Of a stretch of 36,994 nt of DNA, positions 4,234-31,119 are shown piece after piece; positions within the stretch are counted from its first letter, which is position 1; each line of letters begins with the position of its first letter. The notes under the pieces were generated by a model. That model was not told the origin of the DNA. It was given only the letters and a program-made list of their open reading frames with translations, and did not search any database. Where the stretch lies: the IMG/VR virus record IMGVR_UViG_3300034073_004811, positions 1-36,994 of that record, one strand, 5' to 3'. The position numbers were made by a program, and so were the translations under genes. This stretch comes from a virus.

Positions 4234-4267
4234 ATTATAGTTATAAAACCTTCCGTTTGGAGAAAAA

Positions 4268-6853
4268 ATGAATACATTTACTAGAGACGAAGCTTTTTCA
4301 GCATCATTAAAATATTTTAACGGAGATGAGCTAGCCGCTAGCGTATTTTGCGACAAATATGCCCTTCGAAACCCAAAGGGCGAGTTGTTAGAACTTACGC
4401 CATCAGATATGCATCGTCGCCTGGCGCGTGAATTCGCTCGAATCGAGTCGAAGTATCCGAACCCAATGACTGAAAAGGAAATTTTTTGCCTCCTCGCGGA
4501 TGTTGAGCATATTGATGCTTCTCAGCGCGCTGTTATGTCTCTTGAAGAACTTGCTAAGGAGTCTCGCGGATTCGGACCTGTAGTTCCTCAAGGTTCGCCA
4601 ATGTCTGCTATTGGTAATGATTTTCAATATCAATCGCTATCAAACTGTTTCGTAATCCAATCACCTTTCGATTCCTATGCGGGTATTTTAAAGGCGGATC
4701 AAGAGCAAGCCCAAATCATGAAACGCCGTGGTGGCGTCGGTTTTGATGTTTCTACAATTCGTCCAAAGGGTATTGTTACTGCCAACGCTGCCCGCACCAC
4801 CGACGGTATTGGAGTCTTCATGGAGAGATTCTCTAATACTTGTCGTGAAGTGGCCCAAGGCGGTCGTCGTGGCGCTTTAATGTTAACGATCGATGTTCAC
4901 CATCCAGAGATTCGTACCTTCGTCAATATTAAGCGCGACCTCAAGAAGGTCACCGGTGCAAATATCTCGATTCGTTTAACGGATGAGTTCATGCAAGCTG
5001 TAAGGGACGAGGGACAAGTTCAACTTCGTTTTCCAGTAGAACGAGACGCTCCTCATTCTATCGAACAAATGGTTGATGCCAAGCAACTTTGGCATGAAAT
5101 CATCGAGGCTGCATGGGCCTCAGCTGAACCCGGTCTTCTTTTTTGGGATACAGTAAAGCGTCGTACTCCAACCGAGGCATACGCCAGCGTCGGATATGGG
5201 TCAACATCAACGAATCCATGTGGCGAGATTGTTCTATCTCCTTACGATTCGTGCAGATTGCTTCTAGTCAATCTTTATAAGTTTGTAAAGAATCCATTTA
5301 CTTCAGCTGCTGCATACGACAATGAAAGATTCAAGGACGTCGTCATCAAGGCTCAACGTCTTATGGACGACCTCATCGATCTCGAGATTGAAGCCGTAGA
5401 TAAGATTATTTCTAAGATTAAAAAAGATCCTGAGCCTGATGATGTAAAACAATCGGAACTTAATCTTTGGATTAAAATTAAGGAAGCAGCTTTGGGCGGT
5501 CGTAGAACCGGTCTTGGAATTACCGCTTTGGGTGATGCTTTGGCTGCTGCGGGATTTGTTTATGGGTCAAAACAATCCATTCAGATGACAGAATCTCTTT
5601 ATAAGACGCTTGCACTTTCTGCCTATAAGTCAACGATCAAGATGGCCGAGGAGCGAGGAGCATTCCCAGTCTTTTCACACAAACTTGAATCAGAGCATCC
5701 TTTTATTAAGCAAATCCTGGAAGCAAATCCTGAGCTCGTTAGAGATTATAAGAAGCATGGCCGTCGCAATATTGCTCTTACTACGACCGCGCCCGCTGGA
5801 TCTGTCTCGGTTCTTACCCAGACCACATCCGGTATCGAACCGGCATTCATGTTGTTCTACAAACGCCGCAAGAAGGTCAACGGTGATGATCCATCAGTTC
5901 GTGTCGACTTTGTTGACCCGCTCGGCGATAAGTGGCAGGAATTCATGGTCTACCACCATGCATTCAAGAAGTGGATGGAGGTCAACCACAAGACCGAGGA
6001 GAACGTCGCAGAATCTCCTTACCATGGTGGAACCGCCAACGAGATCGATTGGGTCGCCAAGGTAGATCTTCAGGCCGCGGCCCAGAAGTGGATCTGCCAT
6101 TCTATCTCCAACACGACAAACATTCCTAATTCAACTTCCGTAGATGTTGTCAAGGAGATCTACATGAAGGGTTGGGAGACTGGATGCAAGGGTGTCACTA
6201 TCTACCGTGATGGATGCCGAACCGGTGTCCTCGTGGCTGAGACGAAGCCTGAAGAGAAGAAGGTGGACCTTGATGGTCAGCCGGAGACCATGGTAGAAAG
6301 CCATGCGCCAAAGCGACCTAAGGAATTAACCTGTGATATTCACAGAATTAACGTGAGGGCAGGTGGTGACAACGAGAGCTACTTGGTGTTGGTCGGACGG
6401 TTGGATGACAAACCTTACGAGATCTTCTGCGGTCTATCTCAACACGTCGAGGTACCAAAGAAGGCGAAGACAGGCACTCTTATCAAGAATGGTAAGAAGG
6501 ATGGTGTAGCGACGTATAATCTCCAGATTCCAATCGGCGACGATGATCACCTCCTCTTTAAGGATGTTGTCGAACTTTTTGCCAATCCAAACCACGGAGC
6601 AATGACGAGGACACTTTCTCTTGCTCTTCGCCATGGAGTTCCTGTTCAATATGTCGTCGAACAGTTGCAGAAAGACAAGCACAGCGGATTGCAGTCTTTT
6701 TCAAAGGCGATTGCTAGAGTCTTAAAGAGCTATATTCCAGATGGGACCAAGTCCAACTCTGATAAGATCTGCGGGTCGTGCGGACTTGAAGGAATCGTCT
6801 ATAAAGAAGGATGCGCTACATGCGCGTCTTGTGGATGGAGTAAATGCTCGTAA
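4268..6853 (+). CDS. nrdJ: Adenosylcobalamin-dependent (class II) ribonucleotide reductase
   Basis: 861-residue class II RNR that would reduce ribonucleotides to deoxyribonucleotides using a B12-generated thiyl radical, with no need for oxygen or a second subunit. SNCF holds Cys127 and DSCRL holds Cys329, the redox pair; NPCGE at 316-320 holds the radical Cys318 and Glu320. TTTAPAGSVSVL is the phosphate-binding loop. A TSCPD-like region follows (about 670-810), then a C-terminal zinc/redox tail with CGSCG, CATCASCG and a final CS. Start: TTGGAG lies 8-13 bases before ATG 4268. No NrdA/NrdB genes are present. Bases ~5780-6550 are clearly richer in G/C-ending codons than the flanks (see findings). 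The host or its surroundings would need to supply cobalamin. Confidence 0.93.
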   Translation: MNTFTRDEAFSASLKYFNGDELAASVFCDKYALRNPKGELLELTPSDMHRRLAREFARIESKYPNPMTEKEIFCLLADVEHIDASQRAVMSLEELAKESRGFGPVVPQGSPMSAIGNDFQYQSLSNCFVIQSPFDSYAGILKADQEQAQIMKRRGGVGFDVSTIRPKGIVTANAARTTDGIGVFMERFSNTCREVAQGGRRGALMLTIDVHHPEIRTFVNIKRDLKKVTGANISIRLTDEFMQAVRDEGQVQLRFPVERDAPHSIEQMVDAKQLWHEIIEAAWASAEPGLLFWDTVKRRTPTEAYASVGYGSTSTNPCGEIVLSPYDSCRLLLVNLYKFVKNPFTSAAAYDNERFKDVVIKAQRLMDDLIDLEIEAVDKIISKIKKDPEPDDVKQSELNLWIKIKEAALGGRRTGLGITALGDALAAAGFVYGSKQSIQMTESLYKTLALSAYKSTIKMAEERGAFPVFSHKLESEHPFIKQILEANPELVRDYKKHGRRNIALTTTAPAGSVSVLTQTTSGIEPAFMLFYKRRKKVNGDDPSVRVDFVDPLGDKWQEFMVYHHAFKKWMEVNHKTEENVAESPYHGGTANEIDWVAKVDLQAAAQKWICHSISNTTNIPNSTSVDVVKEIYMKGWETGCKGVTIYRDGCRTGVLVAETKPEEKKVDLDGQPETMVESHAPKRPKELTCDIHRINVRAGGDNESYLVLVGRLDDKPYEIFCGLSQHVEVPKKAKTGTLIKNGKKDGVATYNLQIPIGDDDHLLFKDVVELFANPNHGAMTRTLSLALRHGVPVQYVVEQLQKDKHSGLQSFSKAIARVLKSYIPDGTKSNSDKICGSCGLEGIVYKEGCATCASCGWSKCS

Positions 6854-6891: not shown

Positions 6892-7347
6892 ATGAAATTA
6901 AAGAAACTTCAACAAGATAGAATCGAACAAATTATTCGAGAAGAATTAGCTTCTTTAAATGAAGGATGGGCGGCAGCAAACGCTTTTAAACGATCATCCA
7001 TTCAGAACGAAAGACAGCTTTTTGAAGGCGCAACTGAACTTGAGCAAGATCTTTCAGAAGCCTCGATATCTTCAGCGTTGGAGCAAGTTTCTTATGATTC
7101 TGCGCAATCCTGCGTCGTAGAATTTGACAACGAGGTATTGAAACACGTCGCTACCGTGTTAAAAGGTCATGGTCTAATGAGCGCTGGCGAAGATGCAGGC
7201 GATGTGTACGATCGATTGGCTGATTTCGACGAAGGCGCAATGACTGATGCACAAATGGAATGTGCTTCAGACATCGCACTTGCGCTTGATAAATACGCGG
7301 CTTTCATTGCACAACTTGTAGCGAATTCTTATTCAGGTATGGAATGA
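6892..7347 (+). CDS. Small protein with N-terminal amphipathic 'REE' tag, unknown function
   Basis: 151 residues, no recognised family. It opens with MKLKKLQQDRIEQIIREEL, then ASLNEG, matching the tag shared by several proteins in this window (basic/hydrophobic helix, R-E-E, then an L-x-E). The rest is acidic and helical, with two regions rich in E/D/A and a segment with repeated cysteines (QSCVVEF, QMECASD). ATG 6892 is chosen because CGGAG at 6881-6885 is well spaced from it and it puts the tag at the true N-terminus; ATG 6877 is an alternative that adds 5 residues. The gene is coupled to the next one by an ATGA overlap. A virion-internal role is inferred from the tag only. Confidence 0.75.
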   Translation: MKLKKLQQDRIEQIIREELASLNEGWAAANAFKRSSIQNERQLFEGATELEQDLSEASISSALEQVSYDSAQSCVVEFDNEVLKHVATVLKGHGLMSAGEDAGDVYDRLADFDEGAMTDAQMECASDIALALDKYAAFIAQLVANSYSGME

Positions 7348-7634
7348 AAAAAAACGAACAACAAGTAATCTCGAAATTGACATTAGGTCAATTGCGTAAA
7401 TTAGTTCGCGAAGAATATGCTCGTGGTATTCCTGATTTTGTAACTTTGAACGCCGCGTCTAATTGTTCGGAAGAAATGAAACGATACCTTGTTAGATATG
7501 TTCAGCAAAAGGCCAATGATCCTCGCATGCAAAGAGAATTGTTGGCCCGCGCTAATTCTTCTTTAGATGCGATGGAAAAAGAAATTAAAGAAGTTATTGA
7601 AAAGCACATGATGGCATTCATATACAACGCTTGA
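7344..7634 (+). CDS. Small tagged helical protein, unknown function
   Basis: 96 residues, unrecognised. The first third contains KLTLGQLRKLVREEYARG, the same L-x-x-L-R-x-[IVL]-[IV]-R-E-E core seen in neighbouring genes, here preceded by about ten extra residues. The rest is predicted helical with alternating charge (RYVQQKANDPRMQRELLARANSS in outline) and ends in a hydrophobic patch. No L-x-E follows the tag directly. It overlaps the previous gene by 4 bases (ATGA), so the two tagged proteins are translated together. Followed by a 39-base gap before thyX that holds a putative promoter. Confidence 0.7.
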   Translation: MKKNEQQVISKLTLGQLRKLVREEYARGIPDFVTLNAASNCSEEMKRYLVRYVQQKANDPRMQRELLARANSSLDAMEKEIKEVIEKHMMAFIYNA

Positions 7635-7636
7635 TT

Positions 7637-7667
7637 TTGATAAATTTATAGCCGTGTGTATTACAAT
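7637..7667 (+). promoter_or_regulatory. Putative leaderless promoter of thyX
   Basis: TTGATA at 7637-7642 and TACAAT at 7662-7667 are 19 bases apart; the -10 ends exactly 6 bases before ATG 7674. No Shine-Dalgarno sequence precedes that ATG, which fits a transcript that begins at the start codon. The spacer is slightly long for sigma70. Confidence 0.3.
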
Positions 7668-7673
7668 TGCGGC

Positions 7674-8333
7674 ATGCCTTTTCAACCTAATAAAGTCGAA
7701 TTAATTGGTTATTACGGATCCGACGAAAGTCACGCATTATCGGCATGGACTTCGACATCTAGAGATTTAACAGAAGATAAAAAAGCAAGAATTCCTCAGC
7801 TTTTAAAGATGCTTGCCCAAAATGGGCATGAAACACCTTTCGAAAAATCTTCTATTCATTTTCTCGTGACGAGTGACATTGCTTCTCATATTCACCTGCT
7901 GAAGCATAGAATTGGTATTTCGATTAATGCTGAATCAGCAAGATATAAAGAGCTTAAGGAAGACAAGTATTACGTTCCTGTAGATTGGGACTCTGAAGAA
8001 AAAGAACTTTATATCGAACATTTGGAGTCTAGTCTTCAAAAGTATCATGCGTCTCTTGAGAGATTAGTACAAAAAGGAATGAGTCGCAAGAGAGCGAAGG
8101 AATCAGCGCGATTGTATCTTCCATATGGTAATCAAATTACGGCAGACATAATGTTTAACTTTAGATCATTCGCGCATTTTCTCAGATTAAGATATTCCAG
8201 TCATGCGCAAATTGAAATTAGAGATATAGCCCAAAAAATGTTAGAACAATTGATTCAAACCAATTCGTTTACGCATACACTAGAGGCTTTTGATTTCGTA
8301 AATCAAGGTAAAATTTGTAATCCATTCGATTGA
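7674..8333 (+). CDS. thyX: Flavin-dependent thymidylate synthase
   Basis: 219-residue ThyX, which converts dUMP to dTMP using FAD, NADPH and methylene-tetrahydrofolate. The signature RHRxxSxxxxSxRY appears as KHRIGISINAESARY from residue 77, with Lys replacing the first Arg. HETPFEKSSIHFLV upstream and LPYGNQITADIMFNFRSFAHFLRLR downstream (in outline) are the usual substrate-binding segments. GTG 7656 is in frame and would add 6 residues, but ATG 7674 gives the normal start MPFQPNKVELI. ThyX coexists here with a ThyA-family protein at 30109. The pair makes sense if ThyX provides dTMP and the ThyA-type enzyme makes a modified pyrimidine. Confidence 0.92.
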   Translation: MPFQPNKVELIGYYGSDESHALSAWTSTSRDLTEDKKARIPQLLKMLAQNGHETPFEKSSIHFLVTSDIASHIHLLKHRIGISINAESARYKELKEDKYYVPVDWDSEEKELYIEHLESSLQKYHASLERLVQKGMSRKRAKESARLYLPYGNQITADIMFNFRSFAHFLRLRYSSHAQIEIRDIAQKMLEQLIQTNSFTHTLEAFDFVNQGKICNPFD

Positions 8334-8345
8334 TAGGAGTAAATC

Positions 8346-9356
8346 ATGAAAATAGTCGCTGAATATATCTGGTCAGATGGTACGACGCCAACGCAAAAAT
8401 TGCGTAGTAAAACAAAGATTTTTTCTTCTTCTAATTTTGACGGAGATTTTCCAGATTGGACATTTGATGGATCATCTACGGGTCAAGCCTCAGGTGATAA
8501 ATCAGATTGCGTTCTTAAACCCGTAAAATCGGTAATAGACCCGACTAGATCAATTTCGAATGCAAAGTGTTTTCTAGTACTTTGCGAAGTTTTTAATTCC
8601 GATGGGTCGCCTCACAAAACGAATACTCGAGCGCGTTTAAGAGAGGTTTATGAAAAAACCGAATTACAAAAACCCTTATTCGGAATCGAACAAGAATACA
8701 CAATGTTCAAAGACGGAAGACCTTTCGGGTGGCCGACGGGAGGATATCCGCCCAATCAAGGTCCATTTTATTGCGGTGTTGGTTCTGATGAGATTTTTGG
8801 AAGGTCCCTCGTTGAAGATCATTTGATCGCCTGTATTGAATCAAAATTACCAATTTGTGGAATTAATTCAGAAGTAATGCCTGGACAATGGGAGTTTCAA
8901 ATCGGGCCTAGCGACCCTCTAGAAATATCGGACAGTTTGCTGTTAGCTAGGTGGATTTTGTATAGACTCGGCGAAAAACAAGGAATCACAGTAAAGTTAG
9001 ATCCAAAACCTGTCGCGGAGTTGAATGGCGCTGGCGCCCATACTAATTTTTCAACCGAATTAATGAGAGGTAATAATGGATTGGATCACATCGTAGCAGC
9101 TTGTGGTAAACTTAAGGATCGTCATTTTTATCATATCGAAAACTATGGATATGGTATCGAATCGCGACTAACTGGTAATCACGAGACGTGTTCTTATAAA
9201 GAATTTAGATATGGTGTTTCGGATAGAGGAGCATCTATTAGAATTCCACTCCACGTTGCGATGGACAATAAAGGATATTTAGAAGATCGACGTCCATGTG
9301 CCAATGTTGATCCATACGTCGTTACTAGGTTATTATTAGAAACGGTGTGTTTATGA
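8346..9356 (+). CDS. Glutamine synthetase, type II (eukaryote-like GSII)
   Basis: 336-residue ATP-dependent ligase making glutamine from glutamate and ammonia. It is of the short GSII type, not the ~470-residue bacterial GlnA. Landmarks are EYIWSDGT at the N-terminus, WTFDGSSTGQASGDKSD (latch loop), FGIEQEYTMF (metal-binding Glu), GINSEVMPGQWEFQIGP (metal-binding Glu and substrate loop), GAGAHTNFST (ATP-binding His) and the arginine segments SRLTGNHET and SDRGASIRIP. TAGGAG at 8335-8340 is a good ribosome site. The gene overlaps the kinase gene by ATGA. A phage copy could raise glutamine for amide-transfer steps in nucleotide or modified-base synthesis. A nitrilase-family amidase sits at the far end of the window. 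All core motifs look intact. Confidence 0.92.
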   Translation: MKIVAEYIWSDGTTPTQKLRSKTKIFSSSNFDGDFPDWTFDGSSTGQASGDKSDCVLKPVKSVIDPTRSISNAKCFLVLCEVFNSDGSPHKTNTRARLREVYEKTELQKPLFGIEQEYTMFKDGRPFGWPTGGYPPNQGPFYCGVGSDEIFGRSLVEDHLIACIESKLPICGINSEVMPGQWEFQIGPSDPLEISDSLLLARWILYRLGEKQGITVKLDPKPVAELNGAGAHTNFSTELMRGNNGLDHIVAACGKLKDRHFYHIENYGYGIESRLTGNHETCSYKEFRYGVSDRGASIRIPLHVAMDNKGYLEDRRPCANVDPYVVTRLLLETVCL

Positions 9357-14087: not shown

Positions 14088-14329
14088 GAATTACCGTGGA
14101 TCCATTGTTAGCAACAATTGAGTATTTCGCAGGAAACTTTGCTCCACGGGGCTGGATGTTCTGCAATGGTGCAACGTTACAAATTCAACAGAATCAAGCC
14201 TTATTTTCTCTTCTAACGAATAGATTCGGTGGAGACGGCGTACGGACATTCTGTCTTCCAACAATACCAGATCTAAACGGATTAAAGGCGATAATTCGTG
14301 TTGAAGGTGTATATCCACAGAGACCATGA
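14084..14329 (+). CDS. Stand-alone phage tail-collar domain protein
   Basis: 81 residues, nearly all of it a tail collar (microcystin-dependent-protein type) domain: IEYFAGNFAPRGWMFCNGAT, NQALFSLLTNRFGGDG and TFCLPTIPDLNG match the family pattern of a gly/aromatic-rich tail-fibre tip domain. The start is probably TTG 14084, which overlaps the preceding TGA, although GTG 14096 is possible. Full-length tail proteins carry this domain at the end of a long shaft, so a free domain may trimerise on its own or decorate a fibre. It is the only gene in the window that can be tied to the tail by sequence. Confidence 0.8.
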   Translation: MRITVDPLLATIEYFAGNFAPRGWMFCNGATLQIQQNQALFSLLTNRFGGDGVRTFCLPTIPDLNGLKAIIRVEGVYPQRP

Positions 14330-14337
14330 GGAAAAAT

Positions 14338-14679
14338 ATGAAAATCACGCTACAACAATTGCGCAGAGTCATTAGAGAAGAAATAGTTAGATTAACCGAG
14401 GCAGCCGATCCAGAGATAGTTGCCAAAGATGGTAAGGTCCAAATTACTATCGGAAATCAAATGTTTGATTTTTCTCCTGACAAAGTCAGCAGCGTCATAA
14501 AAAAGCCATTATGGTCCGTTAATTCGGATGATTTTGACGATGAAGAAGAGACTGGCGCTACGATCATGAAAACTGGTAAGTCTTCGCCTCCTGACATCGC
14601 GGTTTTTGAAAAAGGAGCTCGCGTTGCCGGCGACAAGATCGATGAAGAAGAATTAAAGAATGCTTTAAGCGGAGTGTGA
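14338..14679 (+). CDS. Small tagged acidic protein, unknown function
   Basis: 113 residues. It starts MKITLQQLRRVIREEIVRL followed by TEA, the clearest copy of the shared tag and a perfect L-x-E site. Next come a predicted beta segment (GKVQITIGNQMFDFSP) and an acidic patch (DDFDDEEE). ATG 14338 is chosen: GAGGA (14329-14333) is well placed and the start matches the MKIT of the next gene, whereas ATG 14326 overlaps the collar gene stop. No known domain. Followed 3 bases later by another tagged gene, so the two are co-translated. Confidence 0.75.
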   Translation: MKITLQQLRRVIREEIVRLTEAADPEIVAKDGKVQITIGNQMFDFSPDKVSSVIKKPLWSVNSDDFDDEEETGATIMKTGKSSPPDIAVFEKGARVAGDKIDEEELKNALSGV

Positions 14680-14682
14680 ATT

Positions 14683-15375
14683 ATGAAAATCACGGCAATG
14701 CAACTTAAGAAATTTATTCGTGAAACAATCGAAGTTGAACTTAACAGCAAGAAGAACCTCAACGAGGCCATGACTCGCATTACAGCTGAAGAGGTCGAAG
14801 CCTGGAAGAATGGCGATTGGGGATATGTTGCTGGCGATGAGAAGACTCATGATATGAATACGATGGACGTTTCTGACGTCACAGACCCAGAACGTTTTCT
14901 GCACGGTCACGAGCACGATCATCCTCATGACGATGAAGGATCAATGGTCAAGTCCCGTCTTTATGCGATGAAGCAAATGGCCCATGATCTTTGCGACATA
15001 ATTGAAAACGGAGATCAACTTCCTGGTTGGACGCAAGATCATATTGCAGTAGCGCATGAAAATCTTCAACAAGTCCATGGTTACATTACAGGTCAACAAC
15101 ATGCTGTTGAACACGGTAAACAGCTAGATAGAATCGGAGAAACTAAAACGAGACTATCAGAGGCACATAATAAAATTACAAAAGAAGAAATGAATGCGTG
15201 GATGAGAGGCGAATGGGGTTTTATATCAGAAGCTGAAGGCGCTACAAAAGAGCCTGATGAAAGTCCCGGCGCGTGGGCAGCAGATTATGAAGAGTGCAAA
15301 GTCTGTGGGTTTGATCATCGATATGATCCAGCAGACGCTATTGCAGCTCACAAAGAAAAGAATAAACCGATGTAA
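14683..15375 (+). CDS. Tagged protein with internal duplication and His-rich loop
   Basis: 230 residues. Tag: MKITAMQLKKFIRETIEVEL, followed by LNEA at 26-29. A 25-residue unit at 25-49 recurs at 157-181 with pattern L-x-E-A-x3-I-T-x-E-E-x2-A-W-x2-G-x-W-G-[YF]-[VI]. Between the copies lie a His-rich stretch (HGHEHDHPHDDEG) and a helical region with LPGWTQDHIAVAHENLQQV, a pattern that from memory is frequent in phage virion-associated proteins. The C-terminus has CKVCGFDHRYDP, possibly metal-binding. It may be processed at the L-x-E-A sites if the phage has a T4 gp21-like protease. The function is unknown. Confidence 0.75.
   Translation: MKITAMQLKKFIRETIEVELNSKKNLNEAMTRITAEEVEAWKNGDWGYVAGDEKTHDMNTMDVSDVTDPERFLHGHEHDHPHDDEGSMVKSRLYAMKQMAHDLCDIIENGDQLPGWTQDHIAVAHENLQQVHGYITGQQHAVEHGKQLDRIGETKTRLSEAHNKITKEEMNAWMRGEWGFISEAEGATKEPDESPGAWAADYEECKVCGFDHRYDPADAIAAHKEKNKPM
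14755..15225 (+). repeat. Internal protein duplication (two 25-residue units)
   Basis: Bases 14755-14829 and 15151-15225 encode two copies of the same 25-residue unit, separated by about 107 residues. The identity is at protein level (ITAEEVEAWKNGDWGYV versus ITKEEMNAWMRGEWGFI). Both copies carry an L-x-E-A at their start. Confidence 0.7.
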
Positions 15376-15406: not shown

Positions 15407-15442
15407 TTATAAATTTAGTCGTCGTTGGAATATGGTGTTTTT

Positions 15443-16540
15443 ATGCATCGAACACTATGTTTTGACGACGTACTTTTAGTTCCACAATATTCTGAAATTG
15501 AATCCAGAGCCAACATAGATCTATCGGTATCTGGATTCGATACGCCAGTCGCCAAATTACATGAGACTTTATTTAATTTGACGTGTCCAATCGTTGGATC
15601 TCCGATGGATACTGTGATGAGTCCTGAATTAGCTAAAGTTTTGGTAGATATCGGCGGGTTTGGAGTTTTTCATAGATACTGTACGATCGACGAAGCACGT
15701 GTAACTTATCTTAAGTTTATCGAATTAGCAAAAACTTGTGACGTGCCGGTAATGGCTAATTTCAACTCCATGGTTGCTATTGGAGCAATGGGCGATTATT
15801 TAGAAAGAGCTCATGCACTTTTTGAAGCTGGTTGTAGGGCGTTTTGTATTGATGTTGCGCATGGTCATCATGCTTCTGTAAGAAACGCGTTGAAAGAATT
15901 GCGTCTTAAGTTCGGAGATTCAATTCACATCATGACTGGCAACGTCGCGACGCTTGAGGCGTTTAACGATTTAGCAGACTGGGGTTCAAACTCCATTCGC
16001 GTGGGAGTTGGAGGCGGTTCGATGTGTTCAACACGAATTCGTACGGGTCATGGAATTCCGACACTTCAATCGGTGATGGATTGTGCGAAATCAGATCGTG
16101 ATGTTTTTATCGTCGCAGATGGTGGAATTAGAAATTCAGGAGATGCAGTAAAAGCATTAGCAGCTGGTGCTGATATGATCATGTTAGGATCTATTCTTGC
16201 AGGACACGATGAATCGCCCGGCGACCTAATAGATGGTAAGGGTTTCGCGTATAAGGAAAAACCTTATGGAATTAATCTATTCAAAAAATTTAGAGGCATG
16301 GCTTCTAGAGAGGCACAGCTCAAATGGCGCGGGCGAGTGTCTGTGGTTGAAGGAGAATCAACGGTTATTCCATATAAAGGCGCAGTTTATAACACATTAG
16401 TAGATCTATTGGAAGGTATTCGATCTGGCGTTTCATATTCAGGCGCAAGAACGATTAGGGAATTAAGATCTAAGGCCAAATTTGTTACAGTGACTCCTCA
16501 GGGAGTCAGAGAAAATGGACCGCATGGTAAACTATATTAA
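15443..16540 (+). CDS. IMP dehydrogenase / GMP reductase family protein
   Basis: 365-residue TIM-barrel enzyme without CBS domains. The catalytic loop [11 protein letters not shown] has Cys195, followed by TGHGIP. The phosphate-binding [19 protein letters not shown] and MLGSILAG segments and the flap FRGMAS are present. GMP reductases use a Glu in an A/x-E-G-K/x-T segment, and here VVEGEST puts Glu303 in that position, while the Arg-Tyr pair of IMPDH is not evident. GMP reductase (GMP to IMP) therefore seems more likely than IMPDH (IMP to XMP), but the call is tentative. ATG 15443 is used; a TTG at 15425 is in frame. It would rebalance purine pools. Confidence 0.85.
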
Positions 16541-16544
16541 TTAA

Positions 16545-16563
16545 ATTGATTTTTTTAATCAAT
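16545..16563. terminator. AT-only hairpin between convergent genes
   Basis: ATTGATT (16545-16551) and AATCAAT (16557-16563) form a 7-bp stem around a T5 loop, in the 18-base gap between the plus-strand IMPDH/GMPR gene and the minus-strand Cys-rich gene, overlapping the latter's stop codon. It could work in both directions but is weak because it contains only one G-C pair per arm. Confidence 0.35.
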
Positions 16564-17143
16564 CTTCGCGCGGATATTTACCCGTTATTTTTTTGGTCGC
16601 CCACGCAGCAAAAGCTTTAGGGTCGTCGATGCCTTTCATCGCTTTAGCTGTATCAACCTTATCATCGAAGGTTTTGTCGCCTTTAAAAATTTTCTTTAAA
16701 GTTTCCTTAGAAGGACCCTTTTCTTCTTTTTCATTCATACCACATTGACACATGCCTTCAGTCATACCACACTCACGACACATACCTTCTGAAGCTTCGT
16801 TCAATCCACACCCGCACGGTGAATCGATCTGCGTCGGCATCATTTGACAACTTGGACACACGTCGTCATGCGTGCAACCACACTGTCCTCCGACAACCAT
16901 CATATTGCAACCAGGACAAATCGTACCTTCATCGTCGCCAGAACTATGGTCACAATTACAAGAACCGTCGATGGGCATTTCTCCACATGCGGGGCAGACC
17001 ATCACATCTTCTGACTGTACGTCTCTTACACCGACAGCGCCTACGTCGGAAATTCCTTTTACATCCCCAATTTTGGTACCGAATACCGGCTCGATGGGAT
17101 CTCCGAACATTTCATAAAGGACTCTGTCTAGAACATTTTTCAT
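16559..17143 (-). CDS. Cysteine-rich multi-zinc-knuckle protein, unknown function
   Basis: 194 residues and the only gene on the minus strand. The middle holds four related Cys units: CPACGEMPIDGSCNC, CPGCNMMVVGGQCGC, CPSCQMMPTQIDSPCGC and CRECGMTEGMCQC, i.e. C-x2-C-x6-10-C-x-C, likely to bind zinc or an Fe-S/other metal. The C-terminal ~50 residues are basic with a DPKAFAAWATKKITGKYP motif; short D-P-x-A-x-x-A-W-x-x-x-x-T-G-x-x-P motifs, as I recall, occur in other phage proteins. The N-terminus MKNVLDRVLYEMFGDP is amphipathic. ATG 17143 is chosen over the longer ORF start at 17191, which overlaps the divergent gene. A TATAAT lies 10 bases upstream of it. Confidence 0.75.
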   Translation of the reverse strand: MKNVLDRVLYEMFGDPIEPVFGTKIGDVKGISDVGAVGVRDVQSEDVMVCPACGEMPIDGSCNCDHSSGDDEGTICPGCNMMVVGGQCGCTHDDVCPSCQMMPTQIDSPCGCGLNEASEGMCRECGMTEGMCQCGMNEKEEKGPSKETLKKIFKGDKTFDDKVDTAKAMKGIDDPKAFAAWATKKITGKYPRED

Positions 17144-17153
17144 GTTATTAATT

Positions 17154-17159
17154 ATTATA
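17154..17159 (-). promoter_or_regulatory. Putative -10 box for the Cys-rich minus-strand gene
   Basis: Read on the minus strand, this is a perfect TATAAT, preceded by TG, 10 bases before ATG 17143. The 38-base AT-rich gap between the divergent genes contains no Shine-Dalgarno sequence for either, so both transcripts may have very short or no leaders. Confidence 0.35.
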
Positions 17160-17181
17160 CATACATAAATTATCTTACGCC

Positions 17182-17490
17182 ATGGCAACAATCGACCCTA
17201 TGATTATCACAATAAACGTGCTTTTATATGGAACTGCATTTATTTTGGGATTTATCCTAGGAAAGATTACTACAGGTTCTAATCATTATGAATCGATCGA
17301 TGCGAAAGATTCTTTTTTTAAACCCCAACAAAAATCAAGAAAAAAAATAGAAATTGATGAAAAAAAGTTTGTGACAGCGATTTCGACAAATTCGCTTGAG
17401 AAAAAAGGTAAAGAATTAGGTTCACAAACGATAGTTGACGATGACGTTGCTGCGGCAGCATCCAAATTAGCGATGCTTAAGAAAAAATAG
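17182..17490 (+). CDS. Small single-pass membrane protein, unknown function
   Basis: 102 residues. One transmembrane span near the N-terminus (IITINVLLYGTAFILGFIL, residues ~8-27) is followed by a basic, coiled-coil-like cytoplasmic tail (QQKSRKKIEIDEKKF, LEKKGKELGS) and an alanine-rich C-terminus (DDDVAAAASKLAMLKKK). It could anchor something at the inner membrane. It lies just upstream of the actin-like ATPase gene, so a link to filament positioning is tempting but unproved. ATG 17182 has no ribosome site and lies 38 bases from the divergent gene start. Confidence 0.7.
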   Translation: MATIDPMIITINVLLYGTAFILGFILGKITTGSNHYESIDAKDSFFKPQQKSRKKIEIDEKKFVTAISTNSLEKKGKELGSQTIVDDDVAAAASKLAMLKKK

Positions 17491-17496: not shown

Positions 17497-17515
17497 TGAA
17501 GCCCAGGAGAATTTT

Positions 17516-18520
17516 ATGGCTAAAGGTTTAGACGTTGGAACATCATTTATCGTATTAGCAGAAGAAGGTTCAAAAAATAAAGTAGCATACAAGGATTTTA
17601 GAGATGCGTTTTATGTTATTAAACCATCAACTCCCATCGCAACAAAAATGATTGAAAAGGGCTTAGCGGGAAAAACTTTCGTTAAAGACGCCGATGGGTC
17701 TTTTATTATTTTAGGTAAAGATGCTATAGAAAAAGCTGTTGAAAGAAATGACTCTGCAAAACGTCCTATGCATAAAGGCGTCGTTTCCTCGAAAGAGAAA
17801 GACGCTCGTCGAATTCTAACATATATTCTAAAGGAAGTTGCGGGCAAACCATCCGAGCCAGAAGAGAAACTGGTCTTCTGTGTACCGGCGCAACCAATTG
17901 ATCAAGAAGATGAAGATTTTGATGTTTCTTATCACGAAGATGTAATTGTTAAGCTTTTAACCGAAGTTGGTTATTCTGCTCGAGCCATCAACGAGGCCGA
18001 GGCTCTTTGTTATTCAGAGTTAGAAAACGATGATTATACGGGAGTTGCACTATCTTGGGGTGCCGGTATGGTGAACGTTTGCGTCATGCTAAATGGCGAA
18101 CCAGTAGTTAAATTTTCTACTACAAAATCAGGAGATTGGGTCGATCGCATGGCGGCCGTAGCGACCGGTGAGACAGATTCAATCGTTCAAGCTGAAAAAG
18201 AGCAAGGTGATTTTATAGTTGGACAACCAAATGATAATCAGGTTTTATCAGCCGTTGCGATATATTATGATCGTCTTATCGATTATACGACAAAGCAATT
18301 GGCTTCAGCGATGGAAGGTCATAAGTCAATTCCAAAATTCAAAGATGCGCTACCCGTTGTCGTAGCAGGCGGAACATCAAAGGCTAAAGGATTCGTCGAT
18401 CTTTTTGCAAAAAAGTTGGAAGAAAATAGTTTCCCGCTACCAGTAAAAGAAGTTCGTCATGCAGCAGATCCCCTGCATGCAGTTGCACGCGGCTGTTTAA
18501 TTGCTGCGCAAGTTATGTAA
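17516..18520 (+). CDS. Actin-like ATPase (ParM/MreB superfamily)
   Basis: 334-residue actin-fold protein. Phosphate-1 is GLDVGTSFI at residues 4-12, phosphate-2 is ALSWGAGMVNV (the usual D-x-G of the family is S-W-G), and the adenosine motif is VVVAGGTSKAKGF near residue 285. PMHKGVV corresponds to the post-phosphate-1 segment and the GDWVDRMAA region follows phosphate-2 as in actin-like proteins. The family forms filaments that position plasmids, organelles or, in a few cases, phage DNA. From memory, homologs of this length exist in bacteria as unnamed actin-like proteins. Replacement of the phosphate-2 Asp could lower ATPase activity. Ribosome site and promoter are both good. Confidence 0.78.
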   Translation: MAKGLDVGTSFIVLAEEGSKNKVAYKDFRDAFYVIKPSTPIATKMIEKGLAGKTFVKDADGSFIILGKDAIEKAVERNDSAKRPMHKGVVSSKEKDARRILTYILKEVAGKPSEPEEKLVFCVPAQPIDQEDEDFDVSYHEDVIVKLLTEVGYSARAINEAEALCYSELENDDYTGVALSWGAGMVNVCVMLNGEPVVKFSTTKSGDWVDRMAAVATGETDSIVQAEKEQGDFIVGQPNDNQVLSAVAIYYDRLIDYTTKQLASAMEGHKSIPKFKDALPVVVAGGTSKAKGFVDLFAKKLEENSFPLPVKEVRHAADPLHAVARGCLIAAQVM

Positions 18521-24445: not shown

Positions 24446-25701
24446 AAATTTTGTTGTTGACTTACGGGAACGAAAGTTCCATCGAGATGGTTCGTAGTAT
24501 TTCTGAACTCAATACACATGAAGTGTATGGTTGTCATTATGACACCATTAATGCTGGTCAAGCTTATCTAAACAAAAAATATATCTTCGAATGTCCCAAT
24601 CCATGGAAGTCTGCTACTGACTTTTTGTCGTGGTTGGAGATTTTTATCAAAGATAATGGCATCGACAAAGTATTCGTTACGAATTGTAAGATGCTAAAAT
24701 TTTTATACGATAATTGGGAATCGTTGGAGTGCATTGATAAGTTAATGATACCTGGTCGCGAGAATCTGGCGCCTTGTTTATTCAAAAATAAACTATATGA
24801 ACTATTACCGGATATTTCTCCAAAAGTTTTAAAGAATCATTTTGAAGCACCAGCCGATATCGAGCTTTTTGCTAAGCCTTGTTATAGTTCGTCGGCCGAA
24901 GGAGCACGTCGAATAAAAAACACGATCGATGATTGGCAAACAATTACGTCGATGGATGTTGTGACCGAATTTTTACCAGGCGAGGAATTTACAGTTGATT
25001 GTGTATCAACACCTACTGGTGAGATTGTAGACTGGAATGTTAGGCTTCGTACCAGAATTAGAGATGGAATAACTTCTTATGGGCGTTCCGCACCTGAGTA
25101 TTGGGAACTAATTGGTACTCACATTAAAACGATCGCTGCGAAGTTGAAGTTGCCATATTTTTGGTTCGCACAATTTAAGTTTGATTCAAGCGGAAATCCA
25201 AAACTCTTAGAGGTCAACTGTCGAATTAGCGGTAGTTTTTGTATTACGAAGTCCTCGCGTAAGGACTATATTAAACTTGCGATGCAAGATTTTAACGAAA
25301 TTGCTATCGTTAAAGGTCCAACGGGTGGAAGGCATTCAATCGCTCGTCATATGAATGTATTGCCCGCAGGCAAAAAATCTTGGGTGTGGGATATTGATGG
25401 CACGATTTGCACCGAAACAGGTGGCAACTATCACTTGTGTGAACCTTTTCCAGTAGCCATCGATGCTCTTAATAAGTTGTATGATCGTGGTGATGAAATC
25501 GTACTTCACACAGCTCGCGGCATGAAACGTTTCAATAACGACGTGGCGATGGTTTATCAAAATCTTTATGAGCTAACAAAAAAACAATTAGACGAGTGGG
25601 GTGTAAGATATGATAAACTCATTATGGGCAAACCATATGGTACGTTGGTCGATGCCGACGCTATCAAAGTTTCTGATTTGCAATTGAAGGAGACAACATG
25701 A
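24442..25701 (+). CDS. ATP-grasp ligase fused to a HAD phosphatase domain
   Basis: 419 residues. Residues ~1-300 form an ATP-grasp protein: a pre-grasp domain (MKILLLTYGNESSIEMV), AKPCYSSSAEGARRI, VVTEFLPGEEFTVDCVS and the metal-binding LLEVNCRISGS. Residues ~312-419 form a small HAD domain: WVWDIDGTIC with Asp317 and Asp319, IVLHTARGM (motif II), LIMGKP (motif III Lys) and DADAIKVSD (motif IV). ATP-grasp enzymes activate a carboxylate as acyl phosphate and join it to an amine or other nucleophile. A fused phosphatase suggests a two-step synthesis. It overlaps the carbamoyltransferase gene (ATGA), so it may prepare that enzyme's donor or acceptor; the substrate is not recognisable. ATG 24442 overlaps the kinase stop. 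Confidence 0.8.
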   Translation: MKILLLTYGNESSIEMVRSISELNTHEVYGCHYDTINAGQAYLNKKYIFECPNPWKSATDFLSWLEIFIKDNGIDKVFVTNCKMLKFLYDNWESLECIDKLMIPGRENLAPCLFKNKLYELLPDISPKVLKNHFEAPADIELFAKPCYSSSAEGARRIKNTIDDWQTITSMDVVTEFLPGEEFTVDCVSTPTGEIVDWNVRLRTRIRDGITSYGRSAPEYWELIGTHIKTIAAKLKLPYFWFAQFKFDSSGNPKLLEVNCRISGSFCITKSSRKDYIKLAMQDFNEIAIVKGPTGGRHSIARHMNVLPAGKKSWVWDIDGTICTETGGNYHLCEPFPVAIDALNKLYDRGDEIVLHTARGMKRFNNDVAMVYQNLYELTKKQLDEWGVRYDKLIMGKPYGTLVDADAIKVSDLQLKETT

Positions 25702-27467
25702 AAACGACAACAGCTCTAATGCTAACTCTAGGACACAACGCTTCTGCAGTCTATTTTGATGGCGAAAAGGCAACTGGATACGAAGAAGAGAGACTTAATC
25801 GTGTCAAGTCGTCGAGCGCATATCCTCGGATGTCTATTGATGAAATTGAAAAGAATGTGACAATCGCGGAGGGGAGTTTTGTTTTCGTTTCTCACTGGTT
25901 TGACAAGCTAGATTTTGATTCTTCATCAAACAAGTATTTTGACAAACTGCACTTTGACAATCTCGTCAAAAAATATTCTTTAAAGAAAGTCGTTTTGAGC
26001 GAGGGTTTTACTCATCACGATGCTCACGCATGGTCGGCCGTTTCCTTTTTGAGAGATAAATGGTCAAATTCTTTTGACAAATTTGTTGCTTCAAAAGATA
26101 AATTTCATGTTATCGCGGCAGATGGCTACGGTACATTCCAAGAAGTTTTTAGTGTTTATGAATTCGATGCTAGTAATAAGTCTTCGAAGTTAAAACTTCT
26201 CGAAAGATATCACGGTTATGGATATTCGCTAGGTCTTATGTATCAATACGCAACTTCGTATTGTGGTATGAAAGAAAATCAAGATGAATATAAGTTCTTG
26301 GGATATGAAACCCACGTTACTAATGTTCTGTCTTGGGATTCTATACAACTTCTAAGAGAGCTAGCTAGAACTAAAGCAGACTCTATGTTTGATAATATGG
26401 TGACGTCACCTGATGGTAGAGAAATGAACTGGAAGGACGAGTCTAATTTGGTTAATTTCCACGCGCTAGCAAATACCAAAAAACAATGGAAACAACATTT
26501 CGATAGCGTTATCGAATCTGTTGCCCCAAATACATCGGGCCGAGATTTGAGAATTATCATTGGTCATTATATTCAAGAGCTTATCGAAGGCGTCGTGTTA
26601 AAGATGATTGAACGTCATTCGATGAAACATCTGGCATTAGCAGGCGGTATCTTTTATAACGTTAAGTTAAACAATAGAGCCTTAAATAAAATTCCAGGAT
26701 TATTTTCTGTCGTTCCTCTTGCTGGCGACCAGGGTTGTGGCGTAGGTATGTACGAGGCTCATGTCGGTGGATTTAAGTGGGGCGATTTGAAGTGGGGCAT
26801 TCGTCCTGCGTTTAGTAACTGGCGTGACCAAATTTCTGCCGAAGATTTTGCTACATATGGAAGTCATATTAAATATTATTCTTCTACACAAAGAAACGAG
26901 GCAGTCTCTGATACCGTAAAGGCATTACAGTCAAATGAATTAGTGAATGTTGTAAAGTCTCGAATGGAGTATGGTCCCAGAGCTTTGTGCAGTACAACTA
27001 CCTTAGCGATTCCGACAACTTCCAACGTCGAAATTATTAACGACATCAATGAAAGAGACACTGTGATGCCAATGGCGCCTGTTATGCTCAACGCTGTTGT
27101 CGATCTGTTTTTTAATACCAACAATAGCGATAGAGTAATTGGCTCCGATCGATTTATGATTCTTACTTACGATTATACTTCTCCTGATTTACAAAATTAT
27201 GGAGGCGTTGCTCACAAGTATCCAGGCGTAGATGTGTGGTCAGGACGTCCTCAATTAATCGACGATAACGATACGTTTATGACGTCAGTTTTAACTGACA
27301 TTTATCCACAATCGAAAGCTTTAATCAACACTAGCTTTAATGCGCATGGACGTCCAATCGTATATTCTTTAGATAGCGTCATGGATAGTTTTAAATTTGA
27401 ATTCGATAAGGCGAAAGAATTGGGTCATAAGCTTCCGCTTCTTTATCTTTGCGATTTTGATGGTTGA
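25698..27467 (+). CDS. Carbamoyltransferase, NodU/CmcH/TobZ family
   Basis: 589-residue O-carbamoyltransferase. N-terminal kinase-like (YrdC-Kae1-type) half: LGHNASAVYF, FTHHDAHAWSAVSF (His106-His107 and His110, metal/nucleotide site), AADGYGTFQ, LAGGIFYNVKLN, GDQGCGVGM. C-terminal half: RMEYGPRALCSTT, NERDTVMPMAPVML, INTSFNAHGRPI. All family motifs appear complete. The family transfers carbamoyl from carbamoyl phosphate, via carbamoyl-adenylate, to a hydroxyl of a sugar or antibiotic; as I recall, a relative in phage-like DNA acts on 5-hydroxymethylcytosine. With the hydroxymethylase candidate at 30109 in the same operon, DNA-base carbamoylation is plausible. Two sugar epimerases nearby make a sugar acceptor an equal alternative. 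Confidence 0.9.
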   Translation: MKTTTALMLTLGHNASAVYFDGEKATGYEEERLNRVKSSSAYPRMSIDEIEKNVTIAEGSFVFVSHWFDKLDFDSSSNKYFDKLHFDNLVKKYSLKKVVLSEGFTHHDAHAWSAVSFLRDKWSNSFDKFVASKDKFHVIAADGYGTFQEVFSVYEFDASNKSSKLKLLERYHGYGYSLGLMYQYATSYCGMKENQDEYKFLGYETHVTNVLSWDSIQLLRELARTKADSMFDNMVTSPDGREMNWKDESNLVNFHALANTKKQWKQHFDSVIESVAPNTSGRDLRIIIGHYIQELIEGVVLKMIERHSMKHLALAGGIFYNVKLNNRALNKIPGLFSVVPLAGDQGCGVGMYEAHVGGFKWGDLKWGIRPAFSNWRDQISAEDFATYGSHIKYYSSTQRNEAVSDTVKALQSNELVNVVKSRMEYGPRALCSTTTLAIPTTSNVEIINDINERDTVMPMAPVMLNAVVDLFFNTNNSDRVIGSDRFMILTYDYTSPDLQNYGGVAHKYPGVDVWSGRPQLIDDNDTFMTSVLTDIYPQSKALINTSFNAHGRPIVYSLDSVMDSFKFEFDKAKELGHKLPLLYLCDFDG

Positions 27468-29149: not shown

Positions 29150-30112
29150 ATGAAGATAGAACATGCATTAGTAACTGGTGGTGCTGGATTTATTGGCAGT
29201 AACCTTACGAAAGAATTAGTTTCGCGCGGCGTGAAGGTTGACATTGTAGACAACATGTCTAATGGTCACATGGAGTTTGTACCTAAAGGCTGTACTTTAC
29301 ATGTAGATGATTTTGCCTCTGATAAAATCTTGAATAAAATTCGTTCAAAAACTTATGATGTTGTAATTCATCTCGCGGCTATTCCTCGCGTAAGTTATTC
29401 GGTCGAGTATCCCTTAGAGACTCACGAAACAAACGTTAACGCGACTTTAAAATTAATGGATGCATGCCGTGACAATGTAAAGAGGTTCGTTTTTGCATCT
29501 TCTTCGTCTGTTTATGGTGGCGCTGACGAGTTACCAACGCCTACCTCAACGCCGAAAAATCCAAAGTCACCATATGCTTTACAGAAATCCATAATAGAGG
29601 ATTATTTAAAGCTCTATTATCAATTATACGGATTGGATTCGGTTTGCTTACGTTTCTTTAATGTGTTTGGCCCAAATCAATTAGGCGATTCTCCTTATGC
29701 GACAGCTGTGTCAGCGTGGTTAACAGCTATTCATGCGAATAGATCGATGAGGTCTGATGGTGATGGTTCGCAATCGCGCGACATGTGTTATGTTGATAAC
29801 ATAGTCGATGCCTGCATTAGAAGCGGTGAAGCTGATGGTTTGTTAAAGGGCGAACCACTTAACGTAGCTTGTGGAGACAGAACGACGAACAAAGCTATTC
29901 TTGAGTTCTTGTTATCCAAATATCCAGAAGCGAAATACCATGATGCACCATGGCGGCCCGGCGACGTTATGCACACTCAGGCAGATGTTTCCAGAACGAA
30001 TGAATTATTGGGTTATGTGCCTTTAGTTCGTTTTTGGGAAGGTCTCGAGAGAACCATGAAGTGGTATGATGAAAACTGGCAGTTGATTAATTCATTGAGA
30101 TTGTCAAAATGA
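29150..30112 (+). CDS. UDP-sugar 4-epimerase-like SDR
   Basis: 320 residues, an extended SDR close to the GalE/WbpP group. VTGGAGFIGSNLTKEL gives the G-x-x-G-x-x-G motif, VDNMSNG the cofactor acidic site, IHLAAIPRVSYSV and FASSSSVYGG the Ser of the catalytic triad, and SPYALQKSIIEDY the Y-x-x-x-K. RFFNVFGPNQ and DMCYVDNIVDA are usual in UDP-GlcNAc/GalNAc 4-epimerases. With the previous SDR it suggests a route to a specific activated sugar. Whether the sugar goes onto phage DNA, virion protein or the host envelope is not visible. No glycosyltransferase is recognised in the window. It overlaps the next gene by 4 bases. Confidence 0.87.
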   Translation: MKIEHALVTGGAGFIGSNLTKELVSRGVKVDIVDNMSNGHMEFVPKGCTLHVDDFASDKILNKIRSKTYDVVIHLAAIPRVSYSVEYPLETHETNVNATLKLMDACRDNVKRFVFASSSSVYGGADELPTPTSTPKNPKSPYALQKSIIEDYLKLYYQLYGLDSVCLRFFNVFGPNQLGDSPYATAVSAWLTAIHANRSMRSDGDGSQSRDMCYVDNIVDACIRSGEADGLLKGEPLNVACGDRTTNKAILEFLLSKYPEAKYHDAPWRPGDVMHTQADVSRTNELLGYVPLVRFWEGLERTMKWYDENWQLINSLRLSK

Positions 30113-31119
30113 AAGTATATCAAAATTTTACCGAAGCCTATGTTGACATTCTTCGCGACGTATATTCGGATCCTGAATTCGTATCTTCCCCTCGTGGGAT
30201 GAAAGTCAAGGAAATTCTTGGATATCAATTTAAAATTCTAAATCCGCGAAATAGAATTCCATACATCAAAGGTAGAGAATTATCAATTCACTATCTTGTT
30301 GCAGAATTACTTTGGTATCTTAGTGGTAACGATTCTACCAGCTGGATTTCAAACTACTCTGCGTTTTGGTCTAAAATTTCTGACGATGGTAAAACAGCTA
30401 ATAGTGCCTATGGCGCTAGAATTTTTAAACCTCATGCAAGAATAGCGTCTAGTATCGACGCAGCATGGACGCAGTGGGAATATATCGTTAATGAATTAAA
30501 GTCTGATCCTGATTCGCGTCGAGCTGTTATTCATATTCGTTCCCCACAAGATTCGATATTGGCCAGTCTAGATGTACCTTGCACGTTATCATTGCAATTT
30601 TTCTTGCGTAATGATAAAGTACACATGGTCGCGTCCATGCGATCTTCGGACGTTATTCTTGGTTTAACCTATGATGTTCCCGCTTTCACAATTTTTCAAG
30701 AATTACTTGCCCTACAATTAACGCAAGAGCTTGGTCGACCAATTGGGTTAGGGTCTTATACACACCTTAGCGCTTCTCTTCATGTTTATGAGAGACACTT
30801 TAAAATGGTCGAAAAAATACTTGATGAAGATACGCGTAGGGATTATCAAGACGTTGTTGAGATGCCGCAGATGCCGACCATGCCTCCACTAGAGGCGCTG
30901 TGCGAGTTGGAATTAGAAGTACGTAAATGCATGACTCCTACTGCGGTTCTAAGGTGTCTTGATCGAATTACTTTGAGCGATTCATATTGGGTTGATTGGT
31001 GTAAAATTTTAGTATCACACCGATTGTTAAAGTTAGATAGCTTAGATGAATCTAATCGATTGCTTCAATCAACAATGTTTAAAGGTTACGAATATTTTGT
31101 AAAAGAGCGAACGACATGA
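30109..31119 (+). CDS. ThyA-family enzyme, predicted dCMP (hydroxy)methylase
   Basis: 336 residues. DSRRAVIHIRS (phosphate-binding Arg pair), LDVPCTLSLQFFLRNDKV with catalytic Cys158, MRSSDVILGLTYD with Arg178 and Asp189, and LHVYERHF (His225, Tyr227). E. coli ThyA has Asn177 where Asp189 stands; Asp is typical of T4 dCMP hydroxymethylase (gp42), which also shares Cys-Thr, M-R-S-x-D-V and L-H-V-Y-x-R-H-F. This supports dCMP as substrate and 5-hydroxymethyl-dCMP as product, although methyl transfer is not excluded. It is longer than gp42 (246 residues) by a C-terminal helical region. A separate ThyX (7674) would provide dTMP. Confidence 0.82.
   Translation: MKVYQNFTEAYVDILRDVYSDPEFVSSPRGMKVKEILGYQFKILNPRNRIPYIKGRELSIHYLVAELLWYLSGNDSTSWISNYSAFWSKISDDGKTANSAYGARIFKPHARIASSIDAAWTQWEYIVNELKSDPDSRRAVIHIRSPQDSILASLDVPCTLSLQFFLRNDKVHMVASMRSSDVILGLTYDVPAFTIFQELLALQLTQELGRPIGLGSYTHLSASLHVYERHFKMVEKILDEDTRRDYQDVVEMPQMPTMPPLEALCELELEVRKCMTPTAVLRCLDRITLSDSYWVDWCKILVSHRLLKLDSLDESNRLLQSTMFKGYEYFVKERTT

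Follow-up and report, generated by a model that had tools for sequence, protein, structure and literature searches.

A Volactin/Mad28-family actin-like gene and an adjoining gene for a small membrane protein, a probable cassette of large uncultured phages

The window analysed here is a stretch of 36,994 nucleotides from a large uncultured phage (IMG/VR record IMGVR_UViG_3300034073_004811). Two genes that follow each other on its plus strand are the subject of this work, and they contain the following features.

17182..17490, plus strand: gene for a single-pass membrane protein of 102 residues, the proposed anchor or adaptor of the actin (family HMM, adjacency)
17197..17274, plus strand: predicted transmembrane helix, residues 6-31, with G23-x-x-x-G27 (AlphaFold2 model)
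17446..17484, plus strand: conserved C-terminal helix, residues 89-101, consensus ..vsKLAqLKK, a candidate actin-binding peptide (conservation, model)
17505..17509, plus strand: AGGAG, the likely ribosome-binding site of the actin gene (read from sequence)
17516..18520, plus strand: gene for a Volactin/Mad28-family actin-like protein of 334 residues (Pfam, model, viral relatives)
17525..17542, plus strand: phosphate-1 motif G-L-D-V-G-T, residues 4-9 (family alignment)
17993..17995, plus strand: connect-1 Glu160 (aligned with a Glu of MreB)
18053..18076, plus strand: phosphate-2 loop S-W-G-A-G-M-V-N, residues 180-187 (alignment)
18053-18067, plus strand: codons of S180-W-G-A-G184, within the phosphate-2 loop
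18368..18376, plus strand: adenosine motif G-G-T, residues 285-287 (alignments)

The actin reading frame at 17516-18520 is intact and begins with ATG. A Shine-Dalgarno-like sequence is present in 49 of 60 distinct stretches upstream of actin genes; a scan for promoters and terminators gave nothing above the shuffled expectation. When the gene is compared with ten relatives, synonymous sites are 72-90% different, which is near saturation, and dN is 0.04-0.09: the gene is under strong purifying selection. In 44 of 53 loci it is more conserved than any other gene compared (the 53 being those of 80 with at least three other window-gene homologues at 60% coverage), a ranking that is biased because the loci were picked by actin similarity. 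At position 138 (17927-17929) the window protein has Ser where all 80 viral relatives have Gly.

The original prediction was of an actin-like protein with its fold motifs in order, and the evidence for this is now strong. Against the Pfam family Volactin (PF25216) the protein scores 229 bits (cut-off 35, E 1.3e-67) over residues 1-331, and in a control using 14 well-known genomes Haloferax volcanii alone came above the family cut-off. At E values up to 1, the only other Pfam families found were Salactin and MreB_Mbl, both below their cut-offs (25 bits against 27 for the latter), with no ParM-type match. The score against MamK was 29.5, for a cut-off of 400, and no PHROGs family matched at E up to 0.01. 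AlphaFold2, supplied with an alignment of 58 sequences, produced a model with a pLDDT of 93.8 and a pTM of 0.91. The closest solved structure to it is the MamK filament 5ljv (Z 28.5, rmsd 2.8, 291 residues aligned), followed by BeeR (Z 27.7) and MreB (Z 26-27). A search of BFVD found no close viral structure, the best matches being Hsp70-like proteins and unlike actin-fold proteins at 11-14% identity. Because of the Pfam E value, the pLDDT and the Z score to MamK, identity as an actin is far beyond chance, and by sequence the protein is a member of the Volactin/Mad28 family, to which the original prediction had not assigned it. The expected motifs run in order through it, as GLDVGT, Glu160, SWGAG, GGT and the connect-2 Gly326.

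The nucleotide-site motifs were compared, in one alignment, between 74 family rows and four outside proteins, two MreB and two MamK-like (a label assigned from sequence). The four come from three genomes in which the family is represented as well. The phosphate-1 Asp6 is found in 71 of the 74 family rows and in 4/4 MreB/MamK-like rows. Glu160 is Glu in 74/74 and 3/4 rows respectively, and it aligns with a catalytic Glu of MreB. GGT is invariant in a nine-row alignment, and in the larger one Gly285 is present in 73 and Gly286 in 72 of 74 rows. At residues 180-184 SWGAG does replace the usual D-x-G-x-G, as had been noticed from the sequence. However, the replacement extends well beyond this protein. 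Residue 180 is Ser in all 73 informative family rows and Asp in all four MreB/MamK-like rows, and residue 187 is Asn in 72 of the 73, as against Asp or Glu (4/4). The window protein and 80 viral relatives all have Ser180 (81/81), and S-x-G-x-G is also found in a further 88 of 88 viral loci, those retrieved with two other phage proteins. Haloarchaeal volactins have a loop of the form S-x-G-[AGS]-G-[ML]-x-N, the sequences compared being homologues of HVO_2015 and not that protein itself. A phage-specific loss of the phosphate-2 Asp was rejected, the Ser being common to the whole family: on this alignment it is the mark of the family, nothing peculiar to the window protein. It is worth adding that the Asp-to-Ser change has already been published for Mad28, as xxxSxGxGxx (PMC10653835), a site to which the window protein conforms.

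It had also been suggested that the protein, with the Asp replaced, may be a non-hydrolysing scaffold. In support of such a non-hydrolysing or very slow actin, making stable and static scaffolds through loss of the phosphate-2 Asp, one can cite the clean split at position 180 between family and MreB/MamK-like rows, together with Mad28, whose filaments form in vitro with ATP-gamma-S and are described as stable (PMC10653835). However, the same Ser is carried by the haloarchaeal volactins, and volactin of H. volcanii is described as forming dynamic filaments that depolymerise fast in vivo (PMC10869688), so Ser alone does not imply a dead scaffold. The phosphate-1 Asp and connect-1 Glu are also retained. 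We therefore regard a static scaffold as unlikely, and the suggestion is not supported in the form in which it was made.

Inteins tend to sit in essential nucleotide-site motifs. In a phage contig of 128,872 bp (L277, actin at 2899-5010), an in-frame insert of 370 residues lies exactly after Ser180. The insert matches LAGLIDADG_3 (43.9, cut-off 22.5) and Hint_2 (28.9, cut-off 28.4), falls just under the cut-off for Intein_splicing (35.3 against 35.8), exceeds it for the intein C-terminal match, and ends Cys...His-Asn|Cys. In a second contig the two halves of the actin are separated by an insert, matched as two pieces, that is 98-99% identical to it. An Rfam scan around the L277 actin for an intron gave no match over the gathering score. 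In another contig, of 166,764 bp (L303, 3001-5175, nearest to the phage genome LR745208), an insert of 399 residues follows the equivalent of Asn187; this matches Intein_splicing (56.7 bits, cut-off 35.8) and lies just under the cut-off for HNH (24.6 against 24.8). The two inteins, one of LAGLIDADG and one of HNH type, are unlike each other, belong to two phage lineages and lie seven residues apart. Besides L277 and L303, loci L294/L295 are noted as positions of these inteins. Because two unlike inteins have inserted within seven residues, the loop appears to be a conserved functional site, and their position would fit an essential nucleotide site. A search of the open-access literature gave no relevant title on inteins in actin-family proteins.

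The gene at 17182-17490 had been described as coding for a small single-pass membrane protein, and the prediction of one N-terminal helix, with a best 19-residue hydropathy of 2.23, agrees with this. The helix is followed by a charged tail and the conserved C-terminal helix. The AlphaFold2 model is weak outside the first helix, helix 89-101 being modelled at low to moderate confidence (block means 65-75). Conservation was assessed over 62 sequences (93 upstream ORFs gave 68 distinct sequences, six of which were dropped by hand as other proteins or fragments). Gly23 is present in 62/62 and Gly27 in 56/62, and in the C-terminal helix both Leu96 and Lys100 are present in 62/62. The Lys/Arg-rich stretch after the membrane helix, judged by eye, suggests a protein with its N-terminus outside and its C-terminus in the cytoplasm.

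Linkage of the two genes, which had been noticed to lie in this order, is very consistent and much stronger than the sequence alone could show. With the window membrane protein alone as query, tblastn found homologues in 81 of 95 loci, and a family HMM, which is partly circular in having been built from upstream ORFs, matched in 79 of the 80 viral loci L002-L081; the exception (L049) is a stretch that begins inside the actin gene. In 87 of the 90 loci with both genes they are adjacent, with a gap under 150 nt. The three others have a DNA methyltransferase gene (L015, L016) or another ORF (L060) in between. In the reverse direction, starting from the membrane protein, the actin gene adjoins in 20/20 loci, 17 of them on contigs already in the actin set and three new. 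Outside this lineage, the HMM gave nothing at E up to 1 in the examined stretches of cellular relatives, nor in those of LR745208, LR756511, L092, L100 and L113, and GenBank phages likewise gave no match to the membrane protein at this limit. Since it was not found in the examined stretches of the other phage branches and of cellular relatives, the Volactin family in general does not need this protein. On gene order, actin and membrane protein are a two-gene cassette in the lineage of the window.

Comparison with Mad28 provides a clue to why the actin might have such a partner. Mad28 also polymerises in vivo (PMC12713370, PMC10653835), and the protein of RS-1 is reported to pellet with liposomes and to give no filaments when truncated at the N-terminus (PMC12713370). 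The proteins compared here are 28-33% identical to the window protein and come from genomes titled as magnetotactic bacteria (MTB), their Mad28 label resting on titles and motif. Ahead of the first motif the open frame extends for a median of 59.5 residues in 12 Magnetococcales ORFs and 101 in 17 Nitrospirota ORFs, as against 11 in 145 phage-clade ORFs and 4 in seven Archaeoglobales ORFs; the contrast is not absolute, some MTB ORFs having Met starts only 12-28 residues before the motif. In the window, the open frame allows at most about 18 residues. Because the phage actin has no room for a Mad28-like N-terminal region, a separate membrane protein could fill the membrane role, and in phages of this lineage membrane contact would then have been handed to the partner. 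The short N-termini of some MTB-titled homologues weaken this argument. Window ORFs scanned with Pfam or PHROGs include replication, nucleotide-metabolism and sugar genes. A Pfam scan of ten ORFs around a Magnetominusculus locus (L145), looking for magnetosome genes, returned FeoB, a ParA-like protein and signalling proteins but no family whose name is specific to magnetosomes, so the Mad28 label of such loci is tentative.

Relatives of the actin are abundant in viruses. A scan of IMG/VR gave 366 relatives among 384 pattern matches, and an alignment scan at least 581 among 599 matches; the best 80 of each were kept, and these two lists overlap heavily. The large-phage setting of the original prediction is confirmed, eight near relatives lying on contigs of 151,782-297,894 bp. 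Among 50,697 GenBank phage records just two match, both uncultured genomes, of 485 and 595 kb. Nine of ten viral records tested have a large-terminase match, two of the nine being weak, so the relatives are tailed phages. The TerL of a related 298-kb contig is about 41% identical to those of Microcystis phage Mel-JY01 and Flavobacterium phage immuto, while no matched phage record reaches 60% identity to the DnaE or DnaB of the window. Matches among 72,556 plasmids number four and all are from haloarchaea; in these large plasmids (H33-H36) the volactin homologues are annotated as hypothetical proteins.

A genome scan gave 66 loci matching the actin family, with titles that include Magnetococcales, Nitrospirae/Magnetominusculus/Magnetocorallium, Omnitrophota, Planctomycetota, Archaeoglobaceae, Haloarcula and others. 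Since phage proteins supplied the scan patterns, this is not an unbiased census. Within one haloarchaeal order, a match was present in 30 of the 59 genomes sampled. Three of the loci (L089-L091) look like pieces of phage binned into MAGs: they show 70-72% identity, fall inside the phage clade of a quick tree and have the membrane-protein gene. A fourth (L154, 51% over 81 residues) may be another. Loci from Omnitrophota and Planctomycetota (L093-L099, L096, L106, L115) have tandem pairs of family actins, in which frequently one member is short and the other has a longer extension at the N-terminus.

For phylogeny, clustering reduced 146 viral sequences to 20 and 119 others to 54; a further 26 rows were thinned from the rooted tree, which has 52. 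The family splits from the MreB/MamK-like rows (99/97). MamK and MreB, although they are the closest solved folds, differ from the window protein in keeping the phosphate-2 Asp, in their position in the tree, and in family cut-offs that it does not reach. The window clade has 11 rows (100/100) and joins L092 (100/99) and, weakly, LR756511 (87/83), whereas LR745208 is placed elsewhere, with L100 and L113 (100/99). The L092 contig has clamp-loader, IMPDH and homing-endonuclease genes. The window protein is separate from the Magnetococcales and Nitrospirota groups, and the archaeal volactin clade (8 rows, 95/95) excludes it. Volactin itself (VolA, HVO_2015) belongs to PF25216, whose cut-off the window protein passes easily, and haloarchaeal family members have a similar loop and are 36-39% identical to the window protein; the latter differs in being phage-borne and in being paired with a membrane protein that is not found in the archaeal stretches examined. 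A single viral clade of the window clade, L092, LR756511 and LR745208 was rejected (p-AU 7e-58), the group having been named after the quick tree and LR756511 being a long branch. It follows from the tree and this test that the viral members form at least two, and perhaps three, branches.

Used as queries, the LR745208 protein found eight viral relatives, two identical to itself, and the LR756511 protein 108, the best 80 of which are 58-80% identical to it. In the LR756511-like branch (L309, L327), a small hydrophobic ORF lies upstream of the actin in 8 of 79 loci. This branch also has an ORF of 331-341 residues beside the actin (60/80 loci), a conserved downstream ORF (75-76/80) and a small ORF directly upstream (the 74-residue form of L327 in 65/80, the 82-residue form of L309 in 7/80). 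In the downstream protein of L327 a unit of about 70 residues is present twice, judged by eye. A much bolder reading is that, as a cytoskeleton, actins of the Volactin/Mad28 type are no less viral than cellular, with several phage lineages having their own deep branches and partner genes, and that phages may have donated actins to archaea and magnetotactic bacteria, where they turned to cell shape and organelle positioning; this we consider very doubtful.

Around the cassette the flanks differ while the two genes stay together. Arrangements include guaB before and a methyltransferase gene or dnaE after, recA-dut before and exo-dnaB after, thyX, or no window genes. Homologues of recA/dut/exo/dnaB, thyX or dnaE lie near the cassette in many loci, and are frequent but not universal: many loci at 74-78% identity have no nearby homologue of the window replication genes. 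Fourteen neighbour proteins from related contigs were scanned. They gave one clamp-loader homologue, which adjoins the cassette in L074, two protease-family matches and one methyltransferase; two more matched weakly or to families of unknown function, and eight had no match. Upstream in the window, on the minus strand, 16559-17191 is a Cys-rich ORF, zinc-ribbon-like by eye, with no Pfam match and a probable start at 17143. Homologues occur in 13 of 95 loci. Since this ORF is divergent from the membrane-protein gene, the cassette may have its own promoter in the window.

An AlpA-like array of DNA repeats beside the cassette was not found, there being only pairs of short imperfect repeats. A defence system was rejected, since PADLOC gave no match, and so was a PhuZ-type system. 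PhuZ is the phage-encoded cytoskeleton of large phages; it has a tubulin fold, and no tubulin-family match was found in the ten phage records searched, using a search that was positive in 13 of 14 control genomes.

Further genes in the window give an impression of the phage. ThyX (PF02511) and a ThyA-type thymidylate synthase homologue (PF00303) occur together in it (7656-8333 and 30109-31119), the latter adjoining thymidine kinase (31116-31676) and lying near a carbamoyltransferase (25698-27467), a combination which may point to modified DNA bases. Auxiliary metabolic genes at 8346-9356, 15425-16540 and 32383-33093 code for glutamine synthetase, IMP dehydrogenase and a superoxide-dismutase-like protein. 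Three ORFs (7344-7634, 14326-14679 and 14683-15375) have a similar Leu/Arg/Glu-rich N-terminal stretch, approximately L-x-x-L-R-x-x-[VI]-R-E-E by eye, which looks like an N-terminal tag common to several small proteins. The window has no tRNAs.

These surroundings bear on what the cassette does. Its membrane protein would suit capsid or virion assembly, or transport, at membrane sites late in infection. Some loci lack the window replication genes nearby, and in L214 (E 2.5e-74) and weakly in L074 the gene directly downstream of the actin matches a protease family. The proteases could be prohead proteases, which would also suit a late, assembly role. However, no head, tail or packaging PHROG was matched by any of the 14 neighbour proteins, and where the flank is recA-dut, the gene for the membrane protein starts right at the end of dut or close to it, making a late role improbable. 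The cassette might alternatively remodel the host, the membrane-tied actin interfering with MreB, with cell shape or division, or with superinfection, and not acting on phage DNA. That the partner is a membrane protein agrees with this, as do reports that volactin affects cell shape and is linked to disk shape (PMC10869688) and that Mad28 responds to cell curvature (PMC12713370). On the other hand, none of the 14 neighbour proteins falls in the PHROGs host-takeover category (two genes of the window, 7-10 kb downstream, do so as sugar and carbamoyl transfer genes), replication genes are nearby in many loci and PADLOC found nothing; host remodelling seems distinctly unlikely.

The best explanation, which we hold to be probable though by no means secure, is that the viral Volactin/Mad28-family filament protein and its membrane protein act as a cassette, forming a membrane-tied filament that organises infection, most probably by acting on phage DNA or the replication machinery. 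The membrane protein would sit in the host inner membrane by its one helix, which may pair through the G-x-x-x-G face, while its charged cytoplasmic tail and conserved C-terminal helix would hold actin filaments assembled by the 334-residue protein on ATP. The tethered filament would position or hold phage components during infection, with replicating phage DNA or its replication machinery as the most probable cargo. Polymerisation, ATP turnover, topology, binding of the two proteins and cargo are all elements that we infer. The replication role is the least certain step, and is proposed because of the neighbours recA, dnaB and dnaE and the precedent of AlpC. In prophage CGP3 of Corynebacterium glutamicum, AlpC is described as a phage actin without which the phage does not replicate efficiently, its loss cutting phage copy number by half, and as having the gene for its adaptor AlpA next door (PMC4446434). 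AlpA binds DNA, whereas the partner here is a membrane protein, and the actin has no ParM-type match. The earlier idea of a role in organising infection fits this explanation.

The occurrence of the family in viruses seems to be new; it is on hundreds of contigs from uncultured phages that belong to at least two lineages. No report of it in phages was found in the open-access literature, a search largely outside subscription papers and preprints. The main text of three Mad28 papers has no word beginning 'phage' in a word search, the accessible part of a jumbo-phage review names actin only as a cellular protein (PMC7950403), and actin, MreB and PhuZ are absent as whole words from a paper on aquatic phages (PMC12619734).

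The wider meaning would be as follows. Both genes of the cassette lend themselves to direct expression and testing in laboratory strains, and because nature offers a series of such actins with Ser for the phosphate-2 Asp, whether they hydrolyse ATP becomes a testable question. Known phage cytoskeletons are the PhuZ tubulins and the ParM/AlpC-like actins. If the explanation favoured here is true, the volactin/Mad28 family would add a third kind, one with a dedicated partner that apparently ties it to the membrane, and virus-made filaments that organise infection would be commoner than cultured phages suggest.
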